Assembly: GCA_036172665.1 (NCBI GenBank)
Contig: CM069869.1
Span: 5,022,001 to 5,086,000 of the forward strand
Direction of reading: 5' to 3'
Origin: Prosopocoilus inquinatus
Taxonomy: Eukaryota; Arthropoda; Insecta; Coleoptera; Lucanidae
DNA length: 64,000 bases
Of this stretch, positions 7,011-58,163 are shown in pieces; the first letter of the stretch is position 1, and each line of letters opens with the position of its first letter. The notes beneath the pieces are model-generated. The model ran no database searches. It was given only the letters and a program-made list of their open reading frames with translations, and was not told the origin of the DNA. The translations under genes and the position numbers were made by a program.

Positions 7011-8111
7011 ACTAAGCGGAGCTCATGTGCAGAAGAAGAAGATGCTGGAAGGCGATACCCTCTGCAGAGTGTGAGAAAGAGGAAAGAAGTTTAGTTGGTA
7101 GGCGTTCCGTACAGACAGAAATGACGGGGTGAATCCAACACGCCTCCAGGGTTGATATATCCGGAGATGTCTTTTGAAGATTCTCTAAACCTCTACAAAA
7201 AAAAAAAGGTTCAGCGAACACCCAACTGAGGAAGACTGTTCTCAATGTGTCTCGAAATCACAGCAGTTTCACGAAATAAGTCCAGGAGACTTGAATCATT
7301 TAAGTTCGCAACCACGTGTCCATTAAAGAGTCACAGCAATAACACAACCAAGTCAGTAGAAGACAGTAGATTTAAATACTTGATCTATGACTGATTGTAA
7401 ATATCGTTACTGGATCCAATGCGATACAAATATAATTGTGCACAAGTTTAAATTAAGGAACTAGACATGATTTACCTGGTTAAAATAAAACTTCCTTAAA
7501 TCCTCAAGATATTTATCGACGTATCATTATTTAAATGAGAACTGACAAACTCACTGCCCTGTTGTTCACCTATGCGTTTCATACACTAAGCTATGTTCCG
7601 TCTCGATTACACACCGAGGTCAAGGACGGCTACCCTCTACGTAGTCGAGGTCTAGTTCTCAAATTAAAAATGCCTTATGTCGGCAGCAAAGTGCAGGTGA
7701 GAACAAGCTCCAAAACTAGTACGTCAGGGAGTACTTGATGAATGCGTGAACTAATACGTAGATAGTGTTACGGGCTCAGTTTGATTTAGATGCATTACTA
7801 CGGCCAGTCACCATCTGCTCGCTATGTCACCTAAACGAAGCCCATTGCCGACAGTTTTTGTGCCAACTTTGGACAGAATTTTTACTTTTTTTTGAAACCG
7901 TTTCTACTTAATTCATTGCCTCTACTGAGCGAGTTACAATCTTTAATCAACCGTTTCATCGAGTTATTCGCCAAAGTATCTTCGCAATTGTCTTTTTTTG
8001 GTATCGGACGGTCATGTTCTATAATCATGGTTGCCAATATTATTCGATACTTTGACAGTCGAATTTGCTATGAGTTTGTAGTGAATTTATTGCTGGAAGA
8101 AAGACTCCTCT
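7011..8111. other. No gene recognised
   Basis: A sequence at 7225-7262 (CTGAGGAAGAC ... GTCTCGAAA) is faintly hammerhead-like but lacks helices I and III. Open frames are short and carry no motifs. Confidence 0.4.
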
Positions 8112-9441
8112 ATCTCTTCGATTGCCTCACGGCGTAGGCTGTCCTAAACTTTAGTGTTCAATTCATCCTGGAAGGGACCGCACGTCTTGCGCTCGTTCGA
8201 ATCAAATTGAAAAGCTGAAAGGTTGTTATAACCTACTTTTTTTAATGTTGCAGAACCTAGAAGCAACGCCTTTTCTTTCTTCGTTAGCTAAAACGCAAGA
8301 ACCGTCTCTGCGATTGTCCCGCGGCGTAGGCCGTCCTAAACTTTAATGCTCAATTCACTTTGCAAGGGACCGCACGTCTTTCCTAGCTCGAATCGTATTG
8401 AAGAGTTGAAAGGTTGTTCTACCCTCTTTTTCTTGGCATTGTGGAACCTAGAAGCAACGCCTCTTTCTATCTTCGCGAGCTAAAACGCTGGAACCGTCTC
8501 TTTGGTTGCCCAGCGGCGTAGGCCGTCCTAAACTTGAGAGCTCAAGACACTTTGGAAGGGAGAGCACGTCTCTCGTTCGTTCGAATCATATTGAAGAGTT
8601 GAAAAGTTATTCCACCCTCTTTTTCTTGACATTGCGGAACCTAGAAGCAACGCCTCTTTCTATCATCGCGAGCTAAAACGCTGGAACCGTCTCTTCGGTT
8701 GCCCAGCGGTGTAGGCCGTCCTAAACTTGAGAGTTCAAGACACTTTGGAAGGGAGAGCACGTCTCTCGTTCGTTCGAATCATATTGAAGAGTTGAAAGGT
8801 TATTCCACCCTCTTTTTCTTGACATTGCGGAACCTAGAAGCAACGCCTCTTTCTATCTTCGCAAGCTAAAACGCTGGAACCGTCTCTTTGGTTGCCCAGC
8901 GGCGTAGGCCGTCCTAAACTTGAGAGTTCAAGATACTTTGGAAGGGAGAGCACGTCTCTCGTTCGTTCGAATCATATTGAAGAGTTGAAAGGTTATTCCA
9001 CCCTCTTTTTCTTGACATTGCGGAACCTAGAAGCAACGCCTCTTTCTATCTTCGCGAGCTAAAACGCTGGAACCGTCTCTTCGGTTGCCCAGCGGCGTAG
9101 GCTGTCCTGAACTTGAGAGTTCAAGACACTTTGGAAGGGATAGCACGTTTATCGTTCGCTCGAATCATATTGAAGGGTTCAAAGGTTGTTCGACCCTCCT
9201 TTTCTTGGCATTGTGGAACCTAGAAGCAACGCCTTTTTCTTTCTTCGCGAGCTAAAACGCTGGAACCGTCTCTTTGGTTGCCCAGCGGCGTAGGCTGTCC
9301 TAAACTTTAGTGTTCAATACACTTTGAAAGGGACCGCACATCTTTCGTTCGCTCGAATCATATTGAAGGTTGTTCTAACCTCATTTTCTTGACTTGCGGA
9401 ACCTATAAGCAACTCTTTTTTCTTTCTTCGTGAGCTAAAAC
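8112..9441. repeat. Seven-copy ~193-bp tandem satellite
   Basis: The anchor CGGCGTAGGC(C/T)GTCCT occurs at 8130, 8322, 8514, 8707 (one change), 8900, 9093 and 9286, so spacing is 192-193 bp. The central units are nearly identical and the outer ones diverged, the pattern expected when unequal exchange homogenises the middle of an array. The unit is richer in G+C than its surroundings and has no open frame. A period near 190 bp is close to a nucleosome repeat. Confidence 0.93.
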
Positions 9442-24915: not shown

Positions 24916-25760
24916 TGATCCGGGGTACACGCTTCTCGCCTCACTAAAAGTAGTGAAGTGAACGGCGGCTAAGAACATCTCCCACACCAGCCTTAGCCCA
25001 GCGCGCAACAGGCTATCAACTACTGTCCCTGCGAGTTCAACCCGATCAACCAGTGAAGAGCTGCCCCAACACTCCTCACTGTTAAGGGCTTAGGAAGTTC
25101 CTCCTGTGAAGGGCTCATTTTGAATTTAAAAAAAAATCATCTCTACCCATCGTTTTACTAGGCATTTTAAAACAGAAATTATTTATGCTTGCATTTGTTA
25201 CATCTACCACGTTAGATGACAATTTGTTACGGCCAATTTTCAAAATTAAGATCAAGTAAACCTCGGTGAGGTTATTGGGCGGTGGACAATAGAGTAGAAA
25301 GCAGGTCTGCCTACACTAAATTCTCCAATGATGAATTATTTTCTCCGCAGGTGAAGCTTACGTAATATCGGCGGCAGCTCAAAAATTTCGGAGAGGGGGT
25401 CATGGACAGCAAAAGAAAAACAAGGGAATTCCGCATTAGACGTAAATTTAAAATTATTTCCTCTCGTCTCATGGTGATCTTAAACAGTTTAGAAATTGTG
25501 AAAATTAACTCTAAATTCATCAATTTACTCAAAATAAACAAAAACTGATGATAGAATGAAATCGACGTAAATTGAATTAAATCACAACCAACAAGTTCAC
25601 AACCGTGATTTCAATTATTTGAAGTCTTAATAATTGAAATAAAGTTCTGTAACACACGATTCGCGACGGTCATTAAAATTTAAACTTAAATTGAAGGTTA
25701 AATATCAATTAGAATGTAAATCGATTGCACTTAACCTTCGATTTAAATGTCAATTAGAAC
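24916..25760. other. No gene recognised
   Basis: AT-rich in its second half. TCAATTAGAA occurs at 25707 and 25751 and again after the palindrome at 26145. The copies at 25749-25760 and 26143-26154 form a 12-bp direct repeat around the palindromic element. Confidence 0.4.
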
Positions 25761-25947
25761 AGATAAAATAGCGACATCTTACTATCGCTTTTTGACCTGA
25801 CATTGCAGTAAGGTAGACAAATTGAAGCGGGATTTGCTCCTAATAAGTTCCCCATGCAAGGCGGCCATGCTTGCTGTCAAAGCATAATGAAAGATTTTAG
25901 AAAAATTTTTTGCAAATCGTCTTTGATTGCAGCGAGAACCTCGAGCA

Positions 25948-25996
25948 GCCTCTGGACAGCTGTTTCAGCCCTGCTTGGGGCTTCTTCAGCAGAGAC
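25948..25996 (-). ncRNA. Hammerhead ribozyme, left arm
   Basis: This is the exact mirror of the motif at 26042-26090, on the opposite strand. The minus strand carries core CTGAAGA and GAAA, a 5-bp helix II (AGCCC/GGGCT), a 4-bp helix III from palindromic ACAGCTGT, cleavable C17 and a 7-bp helix I (GTCTCTG/CAGAGGC). All universally conserved core bases are present. Confidence 0.78.
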
Positions 25997-26041
25997 GTAG
26001 CTCGACATTCGTTTTTGTTTGCAGCGGGAATGTCGAGCTAC

Positions 26042-26090
26042 GTCTCTGCTGAAGAAGCCCCAAGCAGGGCTGAAACAGCTGTCCAGAGGC
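26042..26090 (+). ncRNA. Hammerhead ribozyme, right arm
   Basis: Core strand CTGAAGA is at 26049-26055 and GAAA at 26072-26075. Helix II pairs 26056-26060 (AGCCC) with 26067-26071 (GGGCT) around a 6-nt loop. Helix III is ACAGCTGT at 26075-26082, whose first A and last T form the essential 15.1-16.1 pair. The predicted cleavage site follows C at 26083. Helix I pairs 26042-26048 (GTCTCTG) with 26084-26090 (CAGAGGC), with one G-U. The tiny helix III without a real loop is typical of Penelope and retrozyme hammerheads, which often act as dimers. Activity is inferred from structure only. Confidence 0.8.
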
Positions 26091-26399
26091 TGCTCGAGGT
26101 TCTCGCTGCAATCAAAGACGATTTGCAAAAAATTTTTCTAAAGTCAATTAGAACGTTACTCACTTCTGCTTGAACTTACATAATGAGCGTGTTCTTATTT
26201 ATTATTCAAGCAATCGTCTGCTTCATCTAAGGTCCCTAAATGTAATTGACATTGAACTTGCTTGAGAGGGTCCGTACAAACTGTCATTTTTCTTAGTAAA
26301 TTTAGATTTCATGGTTGGCTAACCTAATTTGATCTTACTGTTCACAATAATTTCTCACTAACAATAAGTTACTATTAGATTTCAAATAGTAATACTTTT

Positions 26400-26540
26400 G
26401 GTTTGCAATGGAACTCTAGAGCTACGCTTCTGCTGATGAAGCCCTACATAGAGCTAAAACAGCTGTACAGGGTCTGTTGGAGAGATTTACTGCAATCAAA
26501 AACTATTTGCAACAAAATGTTAGTAAAATATAGTTTTTCT
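26400..26540 (+). repeat. Diverged copy of the hammerhead unit
   Basis: GTTTGCAATGGAACTC onward aligns with 26018-26145, starting inside the palindrome loop (GTTTGCAGCGGGAATG). The loop therefore belongs to the original unit and the left arm is a later inverted duplication. The hammerhead here (about 26427-26472) has a canonical CTGATGA at 26433-26439, helix II AGCCC/GAGCT with one mismatch, and helix III ACAGCTGT. However, the essential G12 is A at 26456, so self-cleavage is unlikely. Confidence 0.65.
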
Positions 26541-26599
26541 ACGTATTTCATGAAATCTGCCGTTCTCGAAATAATGACGATCAAATCTGGTGACCGAAG

Positions 26600-27145
26600 C
26601 ATGATCGATTAGCATGCAATTAGACAGCCGTTAGTACAGTGGAACAGCAGTTTGAGTAATAAAAGCACAAGGCCATACAATACAATCTAGAAACGGCTTA
26701 ATTTTAAAATACTGGCTAGAATAGAGTGCAATCGGCTCGCGCGTTGGATACACCACCGTGTAGACGAATGTCACATAAATCTGCTTACACATTGTGTAGG
26801 ACTACTTTAAAGAGAAAGAATTCGAAATTCCAATAGACATAAAGAGAAAAAAAAACATTTAGTTTCATTTAATCTCAAGTAGGTGATATGCTGTAGGGTG
26901 AGAACTGCCACGAGAAAGTAATATGTCTCGCGAATTTGATGAAATACAATGTTGAGTGAAATCTTCATGTTTCATTTCCTGTTGAGCATATGAAAAGCTG
27001 ACGCTGCGATTCTAACGTGAAGTTTTGGAAAAACAATGCCAATCGGCATCATTGGGTCACTAATCGGCGTCATTGCACTACTCAGAAGGCAAAGTCTCCC
27101 GGAGGAAGGCGGAGATGAAGTAGCAAGGAAGTTGATAAAACAATT
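26600..27145. repeat. Duplicated segment, copy A (625-bp period)
   Basis: ATGCAATTAG at 26614 and 27239 anchors two diverged direct copies. Both include TTCGAAATTCCAATAG, TTTAGTTTCATTTAATCTC, a GACGCTGCGATTCT block and GTAGCAAGGAAGTTGATAA. Copy A is uninterrupted. No coding signal. Confidence 0.85.
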
Positions 27146-27648
27146 ATTGTTTGAACGAATCTGACAGATCGTTCCGAACCGCATCAAGTAAGATAAATGC
27201 CAATGAAATCTAGTGATTCTAGAGCACTATGAATTAACATGCAATTAGTCAGCCATTAGTATGTTCAAATAGCTTTGAGTAATAAAAGAACTCGCCTTTA
27301 TATTGTACGACTGGACACGACTTTATTTAAAAAAAAACTGGCCGTAAGGTTACAGTAGAGTGCGATCGGCTTGCAAATTGGATGACATATAAATCTGCTT
27401 ACCACACATTGTATAGGTCTTTAAAGTATAAGAATTCGAAATTCCAATAGGTGCAAAGAAAACAAATATTTAGTTTCATTTAATCTCTAGTAGGTAGACG
27501 ATAAGCTTCAAGGAACTGCAACGCTCGTTTCTTTTCACGAGAAAATAATATGTTTTTCTTAAATTTAGCGCATTTGATGAAATAAGACACTGAGTATAAA
27601 AATAAATTTGGATTTGACTCCTAACCACAATATGGTTTTTTTAAAATA

Positions 27649-27693
27649 AACTAAATACGTATTTCGGCAGCTATGCTGCAATTTTCAGTAGTT
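27649..27693 (-). ncRNA. Degenerate Penelope hammerhead ribozyme
   Basis: On the minus strand, helix I AACTA/TAGTT is perfect, helix II holds GCAGC/GCTGC, and GAAA is followed by ATACGTAT as a loopless helix III. The core strand reads CTGAAAA rather than CTGANGA, so the essential G8 is A, and the base of helix II has a T/C mismatch. Hammerheads in the terminal repeats of PLEs are established knowledge. This one is probably inactive. Confidence 0.6.
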
Positions 27694-27931
27694 GCGTCTT
27701 CTATCCTACTAAATCACAGGAGAAGTGACGGTGTCATACCTATCGCTACTTTATATACTAAGTGCGTTCCGCTCCAATGAAGCGTGCGCTTCCAGTAGTG
27801 AGCGCCTCACCGGGTTACGTCAACTAAGTCAAGCAACACAGAACCTGCCAAAGGCCCGTGATCGGCTTCATTAAATTATTACTGGTTTTGTGTATAAAAA
27901 TGGTTTCAAAACCGTCTAATTCCCTGTTGCT

Positions 27932-28530
27932 TCATGTTGCTTTTACTAACCTAAGATTACTTAAATCTATTTTATGACTGGTGTCAAATATATGTTGGGC
28001 AACACTGGATTTTTCCATTCTATTGTACTTTAAGTGAGCTAAGTGTTCCTTAAGTCGTGTTAGTATGTTTCTTTTTGTTTGCCCAATATATTTTTTAGTA
28101 CACCCTTGACAAGATATTTCGTAGATCCCTGATTTCTCATTTGGTTCAGTTTTGTCCTTGGGGTTTGTTAGTAAACGTTTTAGAGTGTTGTTATTAGTAT
28201 ATGCAATTGTGTACCCTTGTGTTTTAAAAACGTTATTTAAACCTTTAGAGCAGCTGTTGTCAAACGGAATTTTAATATATTTAGACGTGTTTGTTTCTGC
28301 TGGTAACAAAGTGGTAAATTTCTTGATATTGGCCTTATTTACAATTTTCCTTAACATATTTTCTACTATATCTACTGAGTAACCATTGTGAATTGCTACA
28401 TCTTTAATAAATTTAAGTTCTTTGTTGTGCCTTTCTTTGGACAGTGGGAAGTTAACTAATCTATTAAGTAGAAAAGAAATTGCAGAATACTTATGTGATA
28501 AGGCATGTTGTGAATCATTAACAATAAATC
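27932..28530 (-). pseudogene. PLE linker and GIY-YIG endonuclease
   Basis: The frame includes LNRLVNFPLSKERHNKEL and IKDVAIHNGYSVDIVENMLR, the conserved linker of PLE proteins. It then reads SGIYEISCQGCTKKYIGQTK and RLKEHLAHLK, the GIY...YIG signature with the catalytic arginine region. It stops after LSNLRLVKAT at 27932, shorter than usual for the endonuclease C-terminus. The in-frame Met at 28357 is internal and not a start. The endonuclease would nick target DNA for element integration. Confidence 0.88.
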
Positions 28531-28654
28531 TATTGGTGTTTGTTTCTTTCCTATATATATATCAAATTCTAATTTGTTTTCACTATTTCTGATAACAAAG
28601 GCATCCAGGAATGATAATTTTCAAATGTGAATTTAATACTAGGAAATTTAGAAT

Positions 28655-28985
28655 TTAAAATATCCAAAAATCTTCTATTCTGCATTCATTGGTATTAAAA
28701 ACAGCGTAAACATCATCTACATATCTAAACCATATTCTATGGAAATAAGTACAATTTTCTTTGAGTGACGTTTCTAAATTACACATAAAAAGATTAGCCA
28801 GATATGGTGATAAGCAGTTTCCCATTGAAGTCCCTTCGGTTTGTTTAAAAAATTTCCCATTAATTTGAAAACAATTTTGCGACATACACAATTTTGTAAG
28901 TTCCAGGAATTCATCTGTCTTCTGTTGGTCTATGTTGTTAGAAACTAGGAGATCTTGCTGGTGGGAATCGGGATACTGGGAGATA
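28655..28985 (-). pseudogene. PLE reverse transcriptase, partial
   Basis: The frame reads HQQDLLVSNNIDQQKTDEFL, KFFKQTEGTSMGNCLSPYLA and then WFRYVDDVYAVF. GTSMGNCLSP and YVDD are RT motifs B and C of Penelope-like enzymes. Motif A and the fingers are absent because the element is 5'-truncated. The frame shifts near 28660 and again near 28550 before joining the linker and GIY-YIG part. Confidence 0.88.
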
Positions 28986-29244
28986 TATATTGTGGTTAGG
29001 AGTCAAATCCAAATTTATTGTTAGACAAGCCACAGTCTCAAACACATTAACACTGAGTATAAACTTTATGTTTCATTTTCTGGTAAGTATATGAAAACCT
29101 GACGCTGCGATTCTCACATGGAACTCCGTCTTACGCAGAGAAGCTTTGGAAAAACAACGCCGATCGACATCACTGCGCCACTTAGCGGGCAAAAGCGTCT
29201 CGGAGGAAGGCGGTGTGATGTAGCAAGGAAGTTGATAACACAAT

Positions 29245-32200
29245 TTAAAATAGAAGTTTAGTTTTTACGTGAACTGGAACAGCTCGAACAAAAAAAGCAT
29301 CCGACTTATCTCATTGCGGGCGAATCTGAATTGAATTCCAGATTCAATTTTTCTTTCAATTAAATTCAGTAATTTTTACCCAAATTCGGCATTCGCGAAC
29401 GTAGAGCAAACGTTCTCCTGCGAAGTGTTTGTGTGTATCTAAACCGTTCCAAACAATAATTCATTTTTTAATTATTTTTATAAAATCATTGTCTCATCAA
29501 ATTTTGGACACCAGAAGATTTAGACGCAGTTTGCTGAGCCAATCAGTACCGTTTGGAAGCTAATCACGATCAAACGATCAAAAAATCCTTGAATCTCTCT
29601 CTCTCTTGTCATTATTTTATTTATTTTTAACGTTATTATTTAATTATAAGGGAAGTGTTTTGTCAACTATCTACAAGTAATTGGTTGTTATTTCGTTATA
29701 ATTTTATTATCTTTTCTTTCGATATATTTGTTAAAATTATCATTCTATTTTATTTCACTAATTTTAAATTCATTCAATATTTTCAATAAGTTTCGAGGAG
29801 AGAAAAGTTTCGTAAGGGGAGAGAGGAGAATTTGACAATCCTCAGGAAATTAACGGCCCCGTTCGGACGTCTCAAGCGAAATACCTTTCTGAGAGCATTT
29901 TCGGCTATAAAACTCAAACTAACTACTCAAAAAAATCGCTTTCCAGCGGTGGCTCGTGGGTCAAAGAGAGCAGGTTGGGTTCCCAATAAAACGGCGGTGA
30001 TTTCGGTCTTTACAAGAGCTTAGATTTAGTATCCTTCTTGAAAAAACCAGGCTTATATTATAACATAATGATTTCTTTGAATTAACGCAGAGTTTGGTGT
30101 TTGAAAAAATTATCGACAGTTATTTTCTGTGTCATTTCTCATCTGCGTGTTTGTTCTTCCTTTTGGACATTTCGTACTTTCTGTAATCGCTAAAATTAAT
30201 TAAATTTGTAAGCATTTGAAAAGCGAGGCTTTCAAGCGAGGTGCTTCTTATGATCGGTCATTAAGTCACGCTGTAATATTAACGACCTTTTTTTCGCGCG
30301 TCCTTTTGTGAACAGATGAATAACAAGTTTATCTTTTCATTAGCTAATAGCCTGCCGGCGAATAAATCTTGCGCACTGTCAGCGGATGAAAGGATTAATT
30401 AACTAAAAAAAAAGAGAAGTGAAATTAAAAGTTTCGTTACAACGTGCCCCTTATTGAGTTTTTATTTGTTTTACTTTTAATTAAGAGCGCGAAGTTCAAA
30501 AGAATTCCTAATTTATCGACAAATTGAATTTTACGTCTAATTGCTTTTTTTCCTGATTCAAAGCCGGAAAAAAATTCTTCCTCTCAGATTTTCGCAATGC
30601 ACGGCACGTTTTCAGAAAGGGATGAACTTGATTGACGGACGGCAAGCTTTATTTCGCGATTTCATTTAATCGTTCGGTGGTGTTCTCTGCACGTTCTGTG
30701 ATAACTCTGACAAGGCATGTGCAAATCCTCGTTCACGAACATCGTCGTTGCTCTCAGTGGCTACTAAATCCATTCAACACGAGCATGCAAACGAGCGTGA
30801 GTTTCAAACAATGTACTTGCATGCCGCGGCCAGAAATTGCCATAAAACTGGACAGGTTTGATATTATTCATTGCCGTGCCCTTGTGGTGACGTTATTATC
30901 ACCGTGAAACATTGCAGCAGGCAGCCAACAGTCTGCGCCAAATTGCAATTACAGTTCGTGTTTCATATTTCGCGTTCGTACGCTCCCAACTTTAATCTGA
31001 TACGTTTCGCCTCGAAAACGTATTGTTTCCGAGAAGTCGTGTCTGTGTAGTTCAAGCCAAGTTATGAAATTACGATTTTCACTGTAACGTGATCCGTTTA
31101 CTTAACCTGTTTATTTAGGCGAATCGTAGATTTATGTTTGTTGATCCTGGTTCTGAAATTTACCTGCGGAGGAGGATAGATGCCTTATAGGGTTTATCAG
31201 CAGGATACCTTCCAGTGAAAATAATATATTTTTGTTTCAATTTCTTTTTTTGTAATACCGTGTTAGGGGCTCATTTCAATTTAAAACATTGCATCATTCG
31301 CCCACGGAAATTTATTTCTACTGGCTTTAAATCCGTGTCTGTCTCTGTGTATACACATTGTTATGTAGTGGGCCTGACCGGTAGCTTTCTTTGGTTCTTT
31401 GAAACTCAGGGTTTTGGGCTCTTGAAGGAATGGAACCTTCCAACTCTTGTTGTAGATGGCTAAAAGACTTATCTACTTAACACGCGTGAGAAACCCGGAA
31501 TTCACGACAGCCAAACTGTCACGCCAGGTTTGCACCTCTTGTGAGAATTTGGCTTTCGCTTTACGCACAACTGTCTAATAATGCTCTGGATTTGCACCTG
31601 CCGCATCAATTAAACACCTGCCCGCAAAGAACTCGGCATTCCGTTTCAAAGTTGCTTGTTTAAATAACTCGTTTAATGGTGAAGGCAGAGATTTCAATTT
31701 TAAAAATAACAACAATGTGTGACGACTTGCGCCCAGCCACCCGATTGTCATCATGGTTAAGTTTTTTTTTCTATTCAACTTTGTTTTATCCAGTCTGGAC
31801 GTTGATGATGATGATGATGACATTGTTGATGTAATCTTGTTTGTTGCCTCCAATAAAATCCACTTTCAACTTGAAACATTTATTGGAACAAATTAACACT
31901 TTATACTAAAGGATACTTTTAAGAGAGCTATTTTCCCCGTTGGAATTTGCTTAACATCTGCCTGTGCGAACTCACGTTCTCTTCTTTTAAGCCTCTTCCC
32001 TCACAAATCAACTTTACCCCTCTCAAACGATCTGGCACGAACCGTGAACATCGAACGCATCTAGAGACATTCTTGTGCTGCACAACTAAAATGCCTAACT
32101 TAAATTTCAGTGGTACTAACTGTGATATTTGATAGTTTTGTTGTTGTTTACAAGAATTTAGAAAAAAAATCATTATATGAACATGTAAATGCATTATATT

Positions 32201-38596: not shown

Positions 38597-39890
38597 TTTT
38601 TACGTGGGCTGCTGGAAAACTTTCTGGAATCTAGTAGGTCTAGAATTGTTAACGTTTATCAACTGTCATATTTGAAAAATTTGACGTTTCTCGCCTATAA
38701 TTCTATTGACAGTTCCTATCCAAGTGAACTAGTTTTGTTTGTACAGCATTTGAGAAAAAGTAATTTTGTGTAAACATGGAAACCTCGCGTGAAAATTTTC
38801 GTGCCATGATTTTTTACGATTTCAAATGTGGTCTACCGCCGAAAGAATGCCTCGATCGGCTTCATTTGGCTTTTGGAGATGAAGCACCATCAAAGAGCAA
38901 TGTTTATAATTGGTTTGGTGAATTCCAGCGTGGACGTACCTCTCTCAGTGACGAATTTCGTGAAGGCCGTCCATCAACATCTGTTGTTGCCATTAATGTC
39001 GATGCTGTGCGTGAAATGTTTGAGCGAGATCGACATATGACATACCGTGAGATTCAAGCATCCTTACGCATTGACGTGAAAGCAATACACCAGATTTTGC
39101 ATGATCATTTGAACGTACGAAAGCTTTGCAGTCGTTGGATCCCACACAATTTAACAGAAGCGCAAAAGCAGGGTCGTGTCAATTGGTGCGAAGAAATGCT
39201 CAAGAAATTCAATGAAGGTCGTTCAAATTTAGTTTATAACATCGTTACTGGTGACGAAACGTGGATCTATTCGTACGAACCAGAAAGTAAACAACAATCT
39301 ACCGTTTGGGTATTTCAAAATGAACCAAAACCAATAAAAGTTGTCCGTTCACGCAGTGCTGCGAAGCAAATGATTGCCTGTTTCTTTGTTTTAACTGGAC
39401 ATGTAGCAACCATGGCTTTAGAGGATCGAAAAACCGTGAATGCTGATTGGTATGCTACAATTTGTTTGCTGGAAGTCATCGATCAAATAAGAAGAAATAA
39501 GAAATCGACGAATTATTCTCCATCATGACAACGCCAGCTCTCACTCAGTCCGTCAAACAGTTGATTTTTTGTCCAACAAAAATGTTGAATTCATGACTCA
39601 TTGTCCATATTCACCTGATTTATCACCTAATGATTGCTTTTTGTTCCCAAATATCAAAAATAAAATGCGTGGTGAGCGATTTTCGTCGGCTGAAGTAGTG
39701 GTTAAAACATTCCGGACACTGGTTTCTGAGGTACCATTCTTTAGAGTGGAAAACGTGCTTTAGAAATTGGTTCGAGCGTATGCAAAAGTGTATTGACGTC
39801 AAAGGCGAATACTTCGACAATGATACCGTTTACCAAATTTCATATGCGTTTTTTCATACCGTTTCCAGCAGCTCACGTATGCCTCCTCGT
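38597..39890 (+). mobile_element. mariner transposon (vertumnana-like), decayed
   Basis: A transposase pseudogene lies between inverted termini sharing TACGTG(G/A)GCTGCTGGAAA, left at about 38601 and inverted at about 39862-39880. TA dinucleotides occur at the presumed ends (38595-38596 and 39891-39892). The extreme ends are only approximate because the outer TIR bases do not match well. Mariner elements cut and paste into TA sites. Confidence 0.88.
38776..39860 (+). pseudogene. mariner transposase, two frameshifts
   Basis: The 250-aa first frame starts METSRENFRAMIFYDFKCGL. It has the N-terminal HTH pair (SNVYNWFGEFQRG, EGRPSTS), the WIPHNLTEAQKQGRVNWCEE segment and the first catalytic aspartate in VTGDETWIYSYEPE. 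A frameshift near 39500-39525 moves to HHDNASSHSVRQTVDF, with the second aspartate, and YSPDLSPNDCFLFP, with the third, giving mariner DD34D spacing. A second frameshift near 39760 moves to NWFERMQKCIDVKGEYFD, the usual C-terminus. The length matches the ~345-aa family norm. The copy is relatively young but dead. Confidence 0.93.
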
Positions 39891-51520: not shown

Positions 51521-53253
51521 CGTTGACAGGAATATGTTTTATTGAAATAGGCGTCAAACGACTGCTCTAGAATAAAACAAAAAATATTCTTATTCATTTC
51601 GAAATAACATTCTGAAAATTCAACTTCCGATCATCTTCTCGCATGAATCATGCGATATAAGTATCACTAATGCGTTCGCTTTAAGGTCACAACTCGTTTG
51701 TAAGTTTATTCTTGTAAACTAGAGGTCTCACGAAGCTCCGGGGTGAAAAGACTAAATCGCATGATGTGGCCGGCTAATAATCGTCGCTTCTCGAAATAAT
51801 GCGATCAGAAAAGTTTCCTCGCGATAAATTCAGCTGTACGTGAAAATTGTACAATCCTATTGAAAACAGACATTATTGTTGAAGCGAAAAGAGTTAATAT
51901 TGGCATAACTGGTACGAGCAAGTAATTGTCGACGTATGTTTCGGTCTTATTAGACTTCATCAGGACAGTACAACAAGGTGTAGGTGTTGACACTTGGAGA
52001 TAAACAACAACAAATGAAGCAACTGACCAGGAGACCGAATGCACATTTGCTGAGAAGGCTCGGATTTCGAGGGCAACAGACGCACACAACGTCAACTTGC
52101 GTTATTTCAAGGGAAAAAAAATTATCGTCTAAGCCAACCCCTGCCGGTTGAAGCCAGAAATATTCGTTTAACACTTTTCTAGAGCGCTCGTCATTGATAG
52201 GGGAAGCATTTTCATCTTTGCCTAAAAAAAAAATCCAGAACCCACACAGAACAGATATTTCTTTTGAGAACGGAAGGGCAGTCCGAGTAATTCTTGAGTC
52301 TGAAAACCTACAGTTTTGCTGCTTGCAAATCCATGAAGCCAGAATTTTATTGAGCTTAGTAGGTACGTGTTGTGATTTTGTGGTTTTCCAGAAAAAGTCT
52401 CACAATCTTTACCTACATTTCATAGGTTTCGAAATATTTAGTGACTTGAACATGTGTTTTAATTTTGGAAGAGTTGCTGTTGAAGGGTGAACCAGTATAG
52501 CCTCTGTTTTATCCATTTTCTCTATTTTGTTGTTGGTAATTTAAAGTTCTCTGAAAAAGATTCCGTATCTTCATGCAGGACAATTGGAGATTTTTGTCAA
52601 TCTCAAAAACGCAAAAGCTCTTGTAGTCATAACAACCTCCCTATCCTCTAATAAACTGTTCCTTCCTCGCAAAATTTGAAAATCTACCATCAAGCCTTGT
52701 TACGGTGTCAAAAACCGTATTCAGAGCCACCCTGTATGCGGTAATTTTTGTCCCGTGCATGTCTTGACTTTGCAGCGTTATTAACTTCCGACGCATCTCG
52801 ATCTATTTCGCTTGCAGCCCGCAGACGTTTCTTTTATTTATTTCAGGCGCGTTTTCGCTTATTTCAGGGACGCTTTCGCAATAAATTGCACAATCTCGCT
52901 ATTTCGACGATTTAATTGCATTAATGTAAACATCACGTCGGCCGGAAAGCCTGTGTTTTCTGCGCTTATTTCGCCTTTAATTCCGATCGCCTGTGCCTTC
53001 TTCGCCGTGGGATTATTAAACGGTTTGTTTATGTAAAGTCGACAGACACGGCTATAAGTTTTTGCTTTAGTTTCCAGCAAATTGCTTGCTTTTTGTCATG
53101 ATTTTTATGCTATTCGACGATGTTCCGGAATGCGTGCACCTTTGACATTTACCGCGATTGGCTCTAGCTGACATCAGATTTGATTCGGATTGGTTATGGT
53201 TAATGTCACTGAGTTTTTGATTTGCGCAAACTCCTTCCTCGATAATTTTGGGG
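51521..53253. other. No gene recognised; holds a hammerhead
   Basis: The sequence around the ribozyme (51800-52180, minus strand) has two overlapping open frames of 74 and 96 aa without a recognised domain. It may be non-coding terminal sequence of a Penelope-like element or a retrozyme. CACCCTGTATG occurs at 52729. Confidence 0.4.
51927..51967 (-). ncRNA. Hammerhead ribozyme with intact core
   Basis: Minus strand: helix I TGTC/GACA, core CTGATGA, helix II GTCT/AGAC around AATA, then GAAA, a 2-bp helix III (AC/GT) with an ATAC loop, and cleavable C17 before GACA. All invariant positions (C3, U4, G5, A6, G8, A9, G12, A13, A14, the 15.1-16.1 A-U pair) are present. There is an A/C mismatch at the base of helix II. 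A very short helix III is typical of Penelope-like element hammerheads. No PLE coding sequence is seen within 1 kb. Confidence 0.75.
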
Positions 53254-55378: not shown

Positions 55379-55494
55379 AACAGATAAAATAGCGACCTCT
55401 TACGATCGCTTTTTGACCTGACATTGCAGTAGGATAGACAAATTGAAGCGGGATTTGCTCCTAATAAGTCCCCCATGCAAGGCGGCCATGCTTT
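55379..55494 (+). repeat. Second copy of the non-palindromic part of the 25.8-kb element
   Basis: AGATAAAATAGCGACCTCTT through GGCGGCCATGCTT matches 25761-25872 with about ten differences. Here no palindrome or hammerhead follows; homology stops abruptly after GGCCATGCTT. Confidence 0.85.
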
Positions 55495-58121
55495 ACTTGA
55501 TATTTTATTTCGTGCACTGAATTGTTGTCTTGGACACAGCCGCCATTCTTTTTTTAAACTGGAGATCATTTTTTGTTGGACATATGGTAGATACCATGGT
55601 ATTGTCCCCTACCGGTAATATTTTTTTTTAAATATGCTACTTTGGATTTCCTTTTATTTTTCCACGACCCTCTCCGACTTTAAAGTTAGCCGCTGGTATC
55701 ACGTCGTGTCCCTCTGCGTCGTCAATAATTCAACTACAGGGGATTCCGAGTACGCATGCTCTGCCTTGTTATAGGTACCTCAGTTATGCGTGTAACTTTT
55801 ATCGTTTCGACTCAGAATAATTCTTTTTGGCCACAACAATTAACGCCCAACGTTTCGTCTCGTAACAATTGGCTCAAATGCTATACTTAGAGACGTTTAT
55901 GGTTATCGTAAGGGAACGAGTCAGCTGTCGTTATCGATCGAGGTCAACGGCGGCTACCCACTAAGCAGACAAAGTCCCGGTTACAAATCGAACTCCAAAA
56001 GTACGTTCATTATTAGCGAATTAGTGAACTCTGAGAATTATTTAAATACATCGAAATGTAATTGCGCTTTTGAGTGTACCGAATGGTGTTTTCTATACTT
56101 TTAGGAATCGAGTTAGGAAAGTTCATTTTCAAAGTCGCATTTTTAATCGAATCAAACGCTTAGCGAAGTGATTTGATTTATGAGAGAGTATCAGGAAATC
56201 CATTTCAGGAATAGCTGCGTTCAGATCAGGAATCCGGGCAGTGCTCGATCGGGTTTACAGCAAGAATAGACAATTGTTCGCTTCAACGATTCAAATTATT
56301 GCACATTCATTCCCAGCTGGATTGCCGCAGATATTACCGATATGAAGGCGATCGCTCAATCTGAATGCGTGCCGTTATTCAAGCGGCCCTTTTAAATAAT
56401 TCCGGGGACATTCTCCCCTTTTCCGCGATCTTCTGCATCTTCGCACTCCATCGGGGGGTCGAAAAGAAGGATATTAGATTATGCAGTAATAAAACGGGTA
56501 AGTAAATTATATTCGCTTTATATTTCCGGAAAAGGTTTTTTTTTTTTTGGCGTAAGGGCACAATAAGATACGACGTAATTTGATGAAGGCGATTTATTTT
56601 CGGGGCACGTGATTTGAGGGGGGGCGTTTATTTTGGAAAAAGCCGGGTGGTGCTTCGCGCCGCTCGCGAAAGAATTTCTCGCACGGATTCATATCGTCGC
56701 AGCACGGATTCAGAACGTTTTAAATAACGGATTTACGATGTTTGTTGCTCTCCCGGGCACAATAAAAATTCAATCCCTCTCGATTTCTTTTTCATGGCGG
56801 CTATATTCCGCGTTTATGTTCTGCATATACACTCTTTAGCCGCCCTCTATATCCGATCCTCATTTTCCGATCGGTCGTCTTTCGAGGTCGTAAGGAGAAA
56901 TCTCTAATATGAAATGAAGTGATGGCGGCCGTATTCTGGATTTCGAAATGTAGAAGAATTTATGCCGTCGCAAGTTTATAATAAAAATATTGTTGCGGTA
57001 GTTCTGGAGGTTGATTTAGCACATAAAATAAAATAAGCAGATATATTTATTGAATATACATGACAATCGGTTAGGAAAGAGTTCCATGCCTTGGCATCTC
57101 TGCACTAGAAATTTGTCCAACTGCTTAGAAGATAGTAAGTATTTACATGATTTGAATGACCTAATTTCAGCGAGGTACAATTATGGATTATCCGGATCTT
57201 CGATTTAGCTTATGTTGGAGAAAACACTTGGACCTTAATATTGTTACCATAAGTTTGTAGTCAGTTAGAAAGAAAGTCTAATAAAAATATATTTATTATT
57301 GCCAACAAATCAAGTTACATGATTCCTAGCACTGTATTAGGGGAGGGTTTTGATTTAGAGGTGTCATCATTACCAATTGGCCGTCTGTACTAAGCGTTCC
57401 AGTATTTAAAGACATTATGACGTGTATCCTTTGCGAGGGACGGACATTTTAATCTTAATCTGATTCGTTAGGATCAAGGCTTTTTCCCCAACACCGAATC
57501 TTTGCGCACGACACGAATTCCCGCGGATTATAATTACAAGTAGATCTCGAAATATAATTTCACTGGTTACTTTTTACTATCGGTTACAATATCCAGGTCA
57601 GGGTGAGATTGCGACAGATAGGATTTTCCAATAGTGCCGGCGTGATTAATAATATGCGACAGCTGACGTTATATAACTATGTATTTCTTCTGACAGACTT
57701 ATTTCATATTTCGTTAGGTAAAATTCAGTTTTATAAGGCCCGGACTGGTTCTGAATCCATTTCTGTCCACCGATTTGTAGAAATTTGACTAATATATTCA
57801 ATTCTCCTGCCATTCTCTTCCTAATCGAATTTGCCACATAGCGACGACGATACTTCCTAAGCAGCGTGGTAAGAAGCTGTAACTTCGTCAAAGTTCGGTA
57901 GTAGCAGGATACAAGGTTGTGCAACTTCGGCAATACTCGGTAGTAGAAACGTAACATGTTGCAACTTGCTGCTCGGATTAGAATGACCCCCACAGTACTT
58001 AAATCAGGTTCCTTATGACCCACTGTCCTTGCCGAATGATTTCACGCCTCATTTGAAACCATTCTTTTAGGATGAATTCCTGGCTTCCGGTTGGTACCGC
58101 GTCTCTCGGATTTCTTCTACT
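55495..58121. other. No gene recognised
   Basis: The 125-aa minus-strand frame at 57646-58023 lies downstream of the hammerhead on the same strand. It has no recognised domain, but repeats a CTACTACCGA(G/A) phrase twice. CpG-richer stretches occur at 56640-56870. Confidence 0.35.
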
Positions 58122-58163
58122 GCCGACGTTTCGTCCTCCATTGTAAAGGAACTTCCTCAGGGC
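58122..58163 (-). ncRNA. Hammerhead ribozyme-like motif
   Basis: Minus strand: helix I GCC/GGC, core CTGAGGA, a bulged A, helix II GTTCC paired imperfectly with GGAC-type sequence, GAAA, loopless 2-bp helix III (ACGT) and C17. All invariant core bases are present. Helix I is only 3 bp, so activity would depend on dimerisation or loop contacts. The motif is followed on + by a CTG microsatellite. Confidence 0.6.

Follow-up and report, generated by a model that had tools for sequence, protein, structure and literature searches.

Head-to-head insertions of a hammerhead retrozyme in Prosopocoilus inquinatus and their likeness to Penelope-like elements

A palindrome carrying two hammerhead ribozymes in the genome of Prosopocoilus inquinatus is an ordinary member of an unusual class of insertions, and is apparently the footprint of a single insertion of a non-autonomous hammerhead retrozyme. 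Most of the examined insertions of this family consist of a minus part followed head-to-head by a plus part of the same unit, with two different outer ends that are each used once and, at most loci, with a target-site duplication around the whole pair. Penelope-like elements (PLEs) of the same genome resemble the retrozyme in this unusual anatomy, which bears on the question of how and by whom animal retrozymes are integrated. Judging from these footprints, we consider it quite probable that a continuous, probably circular retrozyme RNA is reverse transcribed from both cut ends of the target by the machinery of PLEs, and that the two cDNAs are then joined. The two-ribozyme palindrome would thereby become legible as a trace of reverse transcription from two sides on such an RNA, and the rule of one tail per insertion would provide a countable prediction for both retrozymes and PLEs.

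The insertion in the window and its ribozymes

The window, which is the whole stretch of 64,000 nucleotides that was analysed, contains a retrozyme insertion in which a minus-strand side with the outer end B (at about position 270 of the unit) and a plus-strand side with the outer end A (at about position 130) overlap by 2 nt (Table 1). The unit stretch 17-131, including the ribozyme, is common to the two sides and is therefore seen as a palindrome. Its arms (25893-26010 and 26028-26145) are 118 nt long, are separated by a spacer of 17 nt and match at 117 of the 118 positions, in agreement with the original prediction of a near-perfect and recent inverted duplication. The sole mismatch lies outside the element, at position 26143, where the right target-site duplication starts, while the arm stretch inside the element is 115 bp long and identical in both arms. 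The palindrome that had been delimited at 25893-26145 is real, but it represents only the overlap within a larger asymmetric insertion at 25761-26142. No B partner for the older degraded copy at 26396-26527 was found in the window.

Table 1. Retrozyme and Penelope-like features in the window, with positions counted from its first base.
Feature	Position	Strand	Remarks
Left target-site duplication of the retrozyme, GTCAATTAGAAC	25749..25760	+	Exact 12-bp repeat of 26143-26154; two copies in whole window
Retrozyme B side, unit 266 to 17	25761..26010	-	Outer end is start site B; 99% match to monomer
Retrozyme A side, unit 309 over 311/1 to 131	26009..26142	+	Outer end is start site A; 98.5% match to monomer
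Right target-site duplication of the retrozyme, GTCAATTAGAAC	26143..26154	+	Exact repeat of 25749-25760
Hammerhead ribozyme, type I	26042..26090	+	Structural scan and Rfam; predicted cut after C26083
Hammerhead ribozyme, type I	25948..25996	-	Structural scan; predicted cut after C25955 (read on -)
Long hairpin, helix I extended	26012..26118	+	Fold z -7.6; pair conservation
Older degraded retrozyme copy, unit 1-133	26396..26527	+	75-76% match; third hammerhead, G12 to A in core
Retrozyme fragment, unit 269 to 155	55379..55493	-	B side only; 96.5% match
Left target-site duplication of Penelope-like insertion, ACACTGAGTATAAA	27587..27600	+	14 bp
Penelope-like insertion	27601..29049		5'-truncated RT-endonuclease copy on -, head-to-head with 63 nt of own 3' end on +
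Minimal hammerhead-like motif of Penelope-like element	27654..27688	-	Core pattern, G8 changed; 53 nt from untailed end
GIY-YIG endonuclease part of Penelope-like element	27932..28561	-	PF01541, E 3.6e-5
Reverse transcriptase part of Penelope-like element	28655..29002	-	Stop-to-stop frame; PF00078, E 2.6e-8
Inverted short copy of Penelope-like 3' end	28987..29019	+	33 nt
Tail extension	29020..29049	+	30 nt; on this inverted end alone
Right target-site duplication of Penelope-like insertion, ACACTGAGTATAAA	29050..29063	+	14 bp

A structural scan for hammerheads with helices of 7, 5 and 4 bp recovered two ribozymes in the window, at 26042-26090 on the plus strand and at 25996-25948 on the minus strand, and no third, as compared to 2 matches in total when 400 random windows were generated with a first-order Markov chain. 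Each arm of the palindrome contains a complete type I core, as had been claimed for both strands, and cleavage is predicted at the sites proposed before, after C26083 and at the mirror position 25955. The plus copy covers the full Rfam model Hammerhead_1 with 25.8 bits (E 1.2e-4 in a search of 131 bases), which is below the curated cut-off of 34. At curated cut-offs, no hammerhead was listed by Rfam in the whole window, and the sole match was an R2 retroelement RNA structure at 7070-7194 (RF00524, 42.2 bits). Two further stretches on the minus strand (51913-51963 and 58109-58160) match a loose hammerhead core pattern with a partial helix II and are absent from the three-helix scan.

The ribozyme forms the tip of a predicted hairpin that spans about 107 nt (z -7.6 for the fold of 26012-26120), and the 7-bp helix I of the original prediction, which the scan also found, continues as a long imperfect stem to about position 26118. 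Among 34 distinct genomic units out of 62, 1271 of the 1299 pair cells in the hairpin are standard, as compared to 35-48% for slid partners, and changes on both sides were observed at two pairs (14-94 and 17-91). Helix III does contain a self-complementary stretch, ACAGCUGU, as had been noted, but full pairing of this stretch leaves no loop; within one molecule, it can form no more than 2 bp and a tetraloop. The hammerhead core pattern is present in 59 of the 66 retrozyme units. When folded as a circle, the consensus unit gave a z of -7.5 against 200 shuffles, and the stretches around both start sites (125-139 and 268-282) are predicted to be single-stranded in one multiloop.

The protein that can be read from both strands of the palindrome had been dismissed as a by-product, and the frame is indeed without coding support. 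As a candidate gene it was rejected, because the units of the palindrome and of the older copy differ at 13, 7 and 12 sites in the three codon positions; in addition, 17 codons with non-synonymous and 4 with synonymous differences were counted, and the older copy contains a stop. Other features of the window include a mariner-type transposase ORF of 254 aa at 38764-39528 (HTH_48, Transposase_1) and a tandem array at 8113-9441 with 6.9 copies of a 193-bp unit (89% matches). Like the R2-like RNA and the mariner, the sole named protein match, which is from the longhorn beetle Aromia moschata and is the weakest of four, points to an insect.

Retrozyme insertions across the genome

We searched the genome (649.6 Mb in 173 contigs) with the unit as the one query and obtained 44 matches, with 40 of 483 candidates scored. 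The window and 34 further loci that hold these matches make up a set of 35 loci, all of which were chosen via the ribozyme part of the unit. The retrozyme is present at many places in this genome of about 650 Mb, and its unit measures 309-312 nt in eight tandem units from four loci, with all three aligned units of locus L020 being 309 nt long.

A script that looks for a minus part and, at most 40 bp behind it, a plus part (each more than 90% identical to the unit) identified this order at 31 of the 35 loci. The original prediction had regarded a head-to-head pair as unusual for retrozymes and Penelope hammerheads, but it is the usual form of this retrozyme family and was also found at 13 of 28 Penelope-like loci. 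Overlap between the sides was allowed in the mapping, whereby L017 and L037 count as pairs. The reverse order, plus then minus, was also searched for and was seen twice, in L010, where the neighbour is a weak 29-nt piece, and in L026, where an earlier plus part, for which no partner was seen, has a head-to-head pair with a 10-bp repeat at its A end.

An outer end of type A is combined with one of type B in 30 of the 31 pairs, as scored with end windows (112-146 for A, 255-286 for B) that were chosen after the ends were known. The exception is L010, which has a gap in the unit, an extra plus piece (245-280) behind it and a 12-bp duplication. Once the duplications are removed, the A ends lie at 124-134 in 26 of the 31 pairs (the others being L010, L014, L015, L026 and L036) and the B ends at 262-273 in 28 (the others being L010, L014 and L027). 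Exact target-site duplications of at least 8 bp were detected by script in 27 of the 31 pairs and those of 10-15 bp in 23; lengths of 12 and 13 bp are the commonest (15 of 27) in a range of 8-15 bp. As a control for chance repeats, we compared 20,000 random pairs of places in the window at a spacing of 385 and found a repeat of at least 10 bp in 346 of them; this rate may have been raised by the 193-bp tandem array. L036 and L042 are without a duplication, while L010 and L015 have one of 12 bp on a wider look. To the left of the duplication the flanks lean towards A A and to its right towards T T, which may hint at a symmetric cut.

Some of the remaining loci also carry duplications. L029 contains a 13-nt B piece recognised by eye and a 13-bp duplication, and L025 and the newer copy in L022 seem to be A-only; their duplications measure 15 bp and 11 exact bases, respectively. 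No pair was called in L034, and its 8-bp repeat is possibly due to chance. Since the set of 35 loci had been found via the ribozyme part, we also examined retrozymes that were met by chance in the Penelope-like loci, with the exception of pieces that reach the edge of the locus in L045 and L047. Six of these eight copies are head-to-head by script, five of them with A and B ends and that in L082 with ends at 131 and 232. The copy in L073 and the second copy in L074 were not paired by script; the latter may be a pair and was not counted.

The inner ends of either side are distributed evenly along the unit (KS p 0.85 each). The two inner ends of one insertion are at most 20 nt apart in 6 of the 31 pairs as compared to 4.1 expected, and none of the 62 inner ends is located within 5 nt of the ribozyme cut, with 1.1 expected per side. 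The lengths of the sides vary from 30 to 901 nt, and a side longer than 311 nt was found in 19 of the 31 pairs. In total, 25 of the 62 sides exceed one unit and pass through the ribozyme cut site, and their templates were therefore continuous across this site, either as a ligated circle or as an uncut multimer; the template was probably circular.

We also compared the two sides of one insertion to each other. They differ at 76 of 5883 shared positions (1.3%), whereas the per-locus means of the divergence to other insertions, computed for 28 of the 31 loci, are 2.3-5.3%. For the left side, the closest side elsewhere, being the best of many, was closer than its own partner in 16 of 27 loci, the own partner was closer in 9 and a tie was recorded in 2; because the nearest side is often located at another locus, only the mean speaks for one template per insertion. 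The sides diverge more in L031 (5/47) and L024 (11/287). Overlaps of at least 4 nt at the inner junction were counted in 9 of the 31 pairs, as compared to about 2% expected for random junctions, although the count is an upper figure since BLAST ends can extend past mismatches. These overlaps suggest that the sides were joined via short complementary stretches.

The kinship of the two ribozymes with retrozymes and Penelope hammerheads that had been proposed is supported. Metazoan non-LTR retrozymes are described as units of 170-400 nt, for which mobilisation by PLEs or LINEs has been proposed (PMC7229834), and the present family resembles them in its complete type I hammerhead core, its short non-coding unit of 309-312 nt that also occurs in tandem (sides of up to 901 nt), the high self-pairing predicted for its RNA and the co-existing PLEs. 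Further hallmarks of metazoan retrozymes are self-cleavage, linear as well as circular transcripts, duplications of more than 4 bp and the lack of an LTR, a primer-binding site and a polypurine tract. Unlike those retrozymes, which are described as tandem repeats, the present family, known from DNA alone, is arranged head-to-head with two start sites, and the string "head-to" has no occurrence in the main text of the paper on metazoan retrozymes (PMC7229834). The type I hammerhead is likewise shared with satellites of newt and axolotl (PMC7229834) and the W-element satellites of Schistosoma (PMC8490949), which are tandem and for which these papers, where they describe the satellites, mention no head-to-head pairs. 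The amphibian hammerheads are described as having a short helix III and cleaving better as dimers (PMC7229834).

Penelope-like elements of the same genome

A Penelope-like insertion with its main copy untailed at the left end is located 1.4 kb from the retrozyme palindrome (Table 1). Its reverse transcriptase frame shares its first bases with the inverted end copy. Direct repeats that have diverged (about 69%) and whose unit measures about 620 bp are found at 26573-27495 and 29054-29245; the Penelope-like element sits in the second unit, and the first offers an empty-site comparison.

The Penelope-like family is abundant in the genome, as indicated by 4888 candidates, of which 150 were scored and 28 loci analysed. 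Both ends are visible in 13 of these insertions, always with the left end on the minus and the right end on the plus strand, and in each of the 13 exactly one end is tailed and the duplication measures 12-14 bp. L048 offered four ends, from which the pair was picked by its 13-bp duplication, leaving over one untailed plus end. One apparent untailed end each in L044 and L048 was dropped because both carry the same internal flank. Of the other 15 loci, ten have one end in the stretch analysed, L057 and L080 have none, L053 has two on the minus strand and L056 two on the plus strand; the last is L044.

In its 3' part, the Penelope-like family has a minimal hammerhead that bears CUGAAGA, GAAA and a helix III that is palindromic; its core pattern was recovered in 29 of 35 aligned copies, while an Rfam search of ten Penelope-like loci up to an E of 5 listed no hammerhead. 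The 3' region of a second Penelope-like family, next to the retrozyme in L082, has a like hammerhead motif. In both the retrozyme and the PLE, a CUGAAGA-type hammerhead with a palindromic helix III precedes the first start site by about 50-60 nt, with the predicted cut 53 nt before the untailed end in the PLE of the window and 52-62 nt before most A ends in the retrozyme.

The possibility that the retrozyme hammerhead is part of the neighbouring Penelope-like element was examined and rejected; the window contains no repeat that links the two. When compared to the Penelope-like loci, the unit matched solely separate retrozyme copies. No sequence common to the retrozyme and the PLE was found, so that the link between them rests on anatomy. 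A unit of 311 nt without a coding signal provides neither a reverse transcriptase nor a GIY-YIG endonuclease, and the retrozyme is thus not itself a PLE. The head-to-head layout with one extended end and a short duplication was nonetheless recovered in 30 of the 31 retrozyme pairs, as A and B ends, and in 13 of the 13 Penelope-like pairs.

Similar features have been described for PLEs elsewhere, including head-to-head copies, short duplications, AT-rich targets, an extension at one end and a hammerhead before the start site (PMC3846280, PMC11167929). In rotifer Penelopes, inverted head-to-head pLTRs with an optional tail on one of them were explained by self-priming on an antisense template (PMC3846280). 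A purified Penelope-like protein was reported to cut and extend both target strands with internal starts at two sites, the tail being the stretch between these two sites; the strands were not seen to differ in vitro (PMC11167929). This activity speaks for our reading of the retrozyme insertions as products of extension from both target ends. The retrozyme differs from PLEs in having no ORF and in the distance between A and B, which is about 139 nt as compared to a PLE tail of 30 nt. Among titles and abstract openings in the literature, we found neither head-to-head retrozyme insertions nor a rule of one tail per insertion, although the rule for Penelope may already be in print.

Proposed mode of insertion and alternative explanations

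We infer two-sided target priming, a circular template and a Penelope-like protein as the enzyme. Copies of the retrozyme would be transcribed and the RNA processed by its hammerheads, giving a covalently continuous template that may be a ligated circle or an uncut multimer of the 309-312-nt unit. A staggered endonuclease cut in AT-rich DNA would leave duplications of mostly 12-13 bp, which is the footprint observed. Both 3' ends of the cut would prime on the sense RNA, with starts at about 130 (A) for one and about 270 (B) for its counterpart, and synthesis would halt at scattered points, at times after two to three laps. The two cDNAs would finally be united head-to-head, partly by short complementary stretches. 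PLEs are the most likely source of the enzyme, since their insertions in this genome match those of the retrozyme in layout, in duplication length and in the rule of one long and one short end; PLEs have also been named a strong candidate for the integration of animal retrozymes (PMC7229834). Because the start sites of the Penelope-like protein were not seen to differ between strands in vitro, the strict pairing of one A with one B has no known cause. One-sided or unpaired copies (L022, L025, L034, L073, 55379-55493, 26396-26527 and the first plus part of L026) speak against the proposed mode, as do the plus-then-minus neighbours in L010 and L026 and the missing duplications of L036 and L042.

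Two-sided priming with the A and B rule could further be the normal mode of Penelope-type integration. As one joint claim, in which a symmetric dimer cleaves both strands with a stagger of about 12-13 bp, priming on the sense RNA takes place at each target end with the two start sites used once per insertion, the retrozyme serves as a circular template that exposes both start sites single-stranded in one multiloop and is copied for several laps, and the optional Penelope tail marks the second end, this extension seems to us evenly poised between being right and being wrong.

A different route to an inverted arm, which we regard as improbable, is fold-back self-priming, where the first cDNA snaps back and copies itself. 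The pair in the window is nearly symmetric inside, with inner ends 19 nt apart, as are those of L017 (0 nt), L026 (5 nt), L040 (7 nt), L042 (8 nt) and L028 (19 nt), and self-priming on an antisense template is the explanation that was put forward for rotifer Penelopes (PMC3846280). However, the inner ends are not closer to each other than expected by chance (with 4.1 of 31 pairs expected within 20 nt and 6 observed), the copy of one cDNA would not give the differing outer ends that were seen in 30 of the 31 pairs, and each of the 13 Penelope-like pairs has a single tail. We hold it to be equally improbable that another, non-Penelope non-LTR enzyme generated the pairs by LINE-type twin priming. 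L1 twin priming, in which both target ends also prime, yields a similar layout of minus then plus, and the window does contain other non-LTR elements (reverse transcriptase and endonuclease ORFs between 444 and 2517 and the R2-like RNA at 7070). It is nevertheless an occasional event, with a poly(A) end and a variable inverted second start as its hallmarks, whereas the head-to-head arrangement is the usual form here, no poly(A) end was seen at the retrozyme insertions and the second start is narrow rather than variable (28 of 31 B ends at 262-273). The duplication length and the end rule are, moreover, common to the retrozyme and the Penelope-like elements.

The outer parts are mutually inverted and flanked by a duplication, as they would be in a DNA transposon or MITE whose terminal inverted repeats happen to contain hammerheads, yet the termini differ in sequence (A and B), the sides range from 30 to 901 nt with tandem laps, and neither identical inverted termini nor a fixed interior were found, which makes this origin extremely unlikely. 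Short perfect palindromes can arise as library artefacts, and the original prediction had asked for a check on chimeras; the ends of the insertion coincide with the ends of the element, an exact 12-bp duplication surrounds the whole, and the layout is repeated at other loci with different flanks and inner junctions, so that we assign a chimera of the assembly or library hardly any probability. It is also very unlikely that the pair is maintained as a switch that regulates whether its RNA cleaves itself or serves as a Dicer substrate: a transcript across the palindrome would form a stem of about 115 bp, and Rfam microRNA models score this stem below their cut-offs, but the layout is explained by the mode of insertion, it recurs at scattered loci with varied inner junctions and no sign of upkeep was seen here.

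Several minor observations were made in the Penelope-like loci. Retrozyme insertions are frequent in the loci that were picked for the Penelope-like endonuclease (L046, L064, L072-L074, L078 and L082), where they may cluster or may just be numerous. The retrozyme in L082 (1450-1485), which lies beside the second Penelope-like family, is about 80% like the consensus, and the core pattern of its hammerhead is intact. Near-perfect hairpins in two Penelope-like insertions (L047, 3185-3346; L061, 2303-2369) were scored as microRNA precursors below cut-off and are probably palindromic inner junctions.
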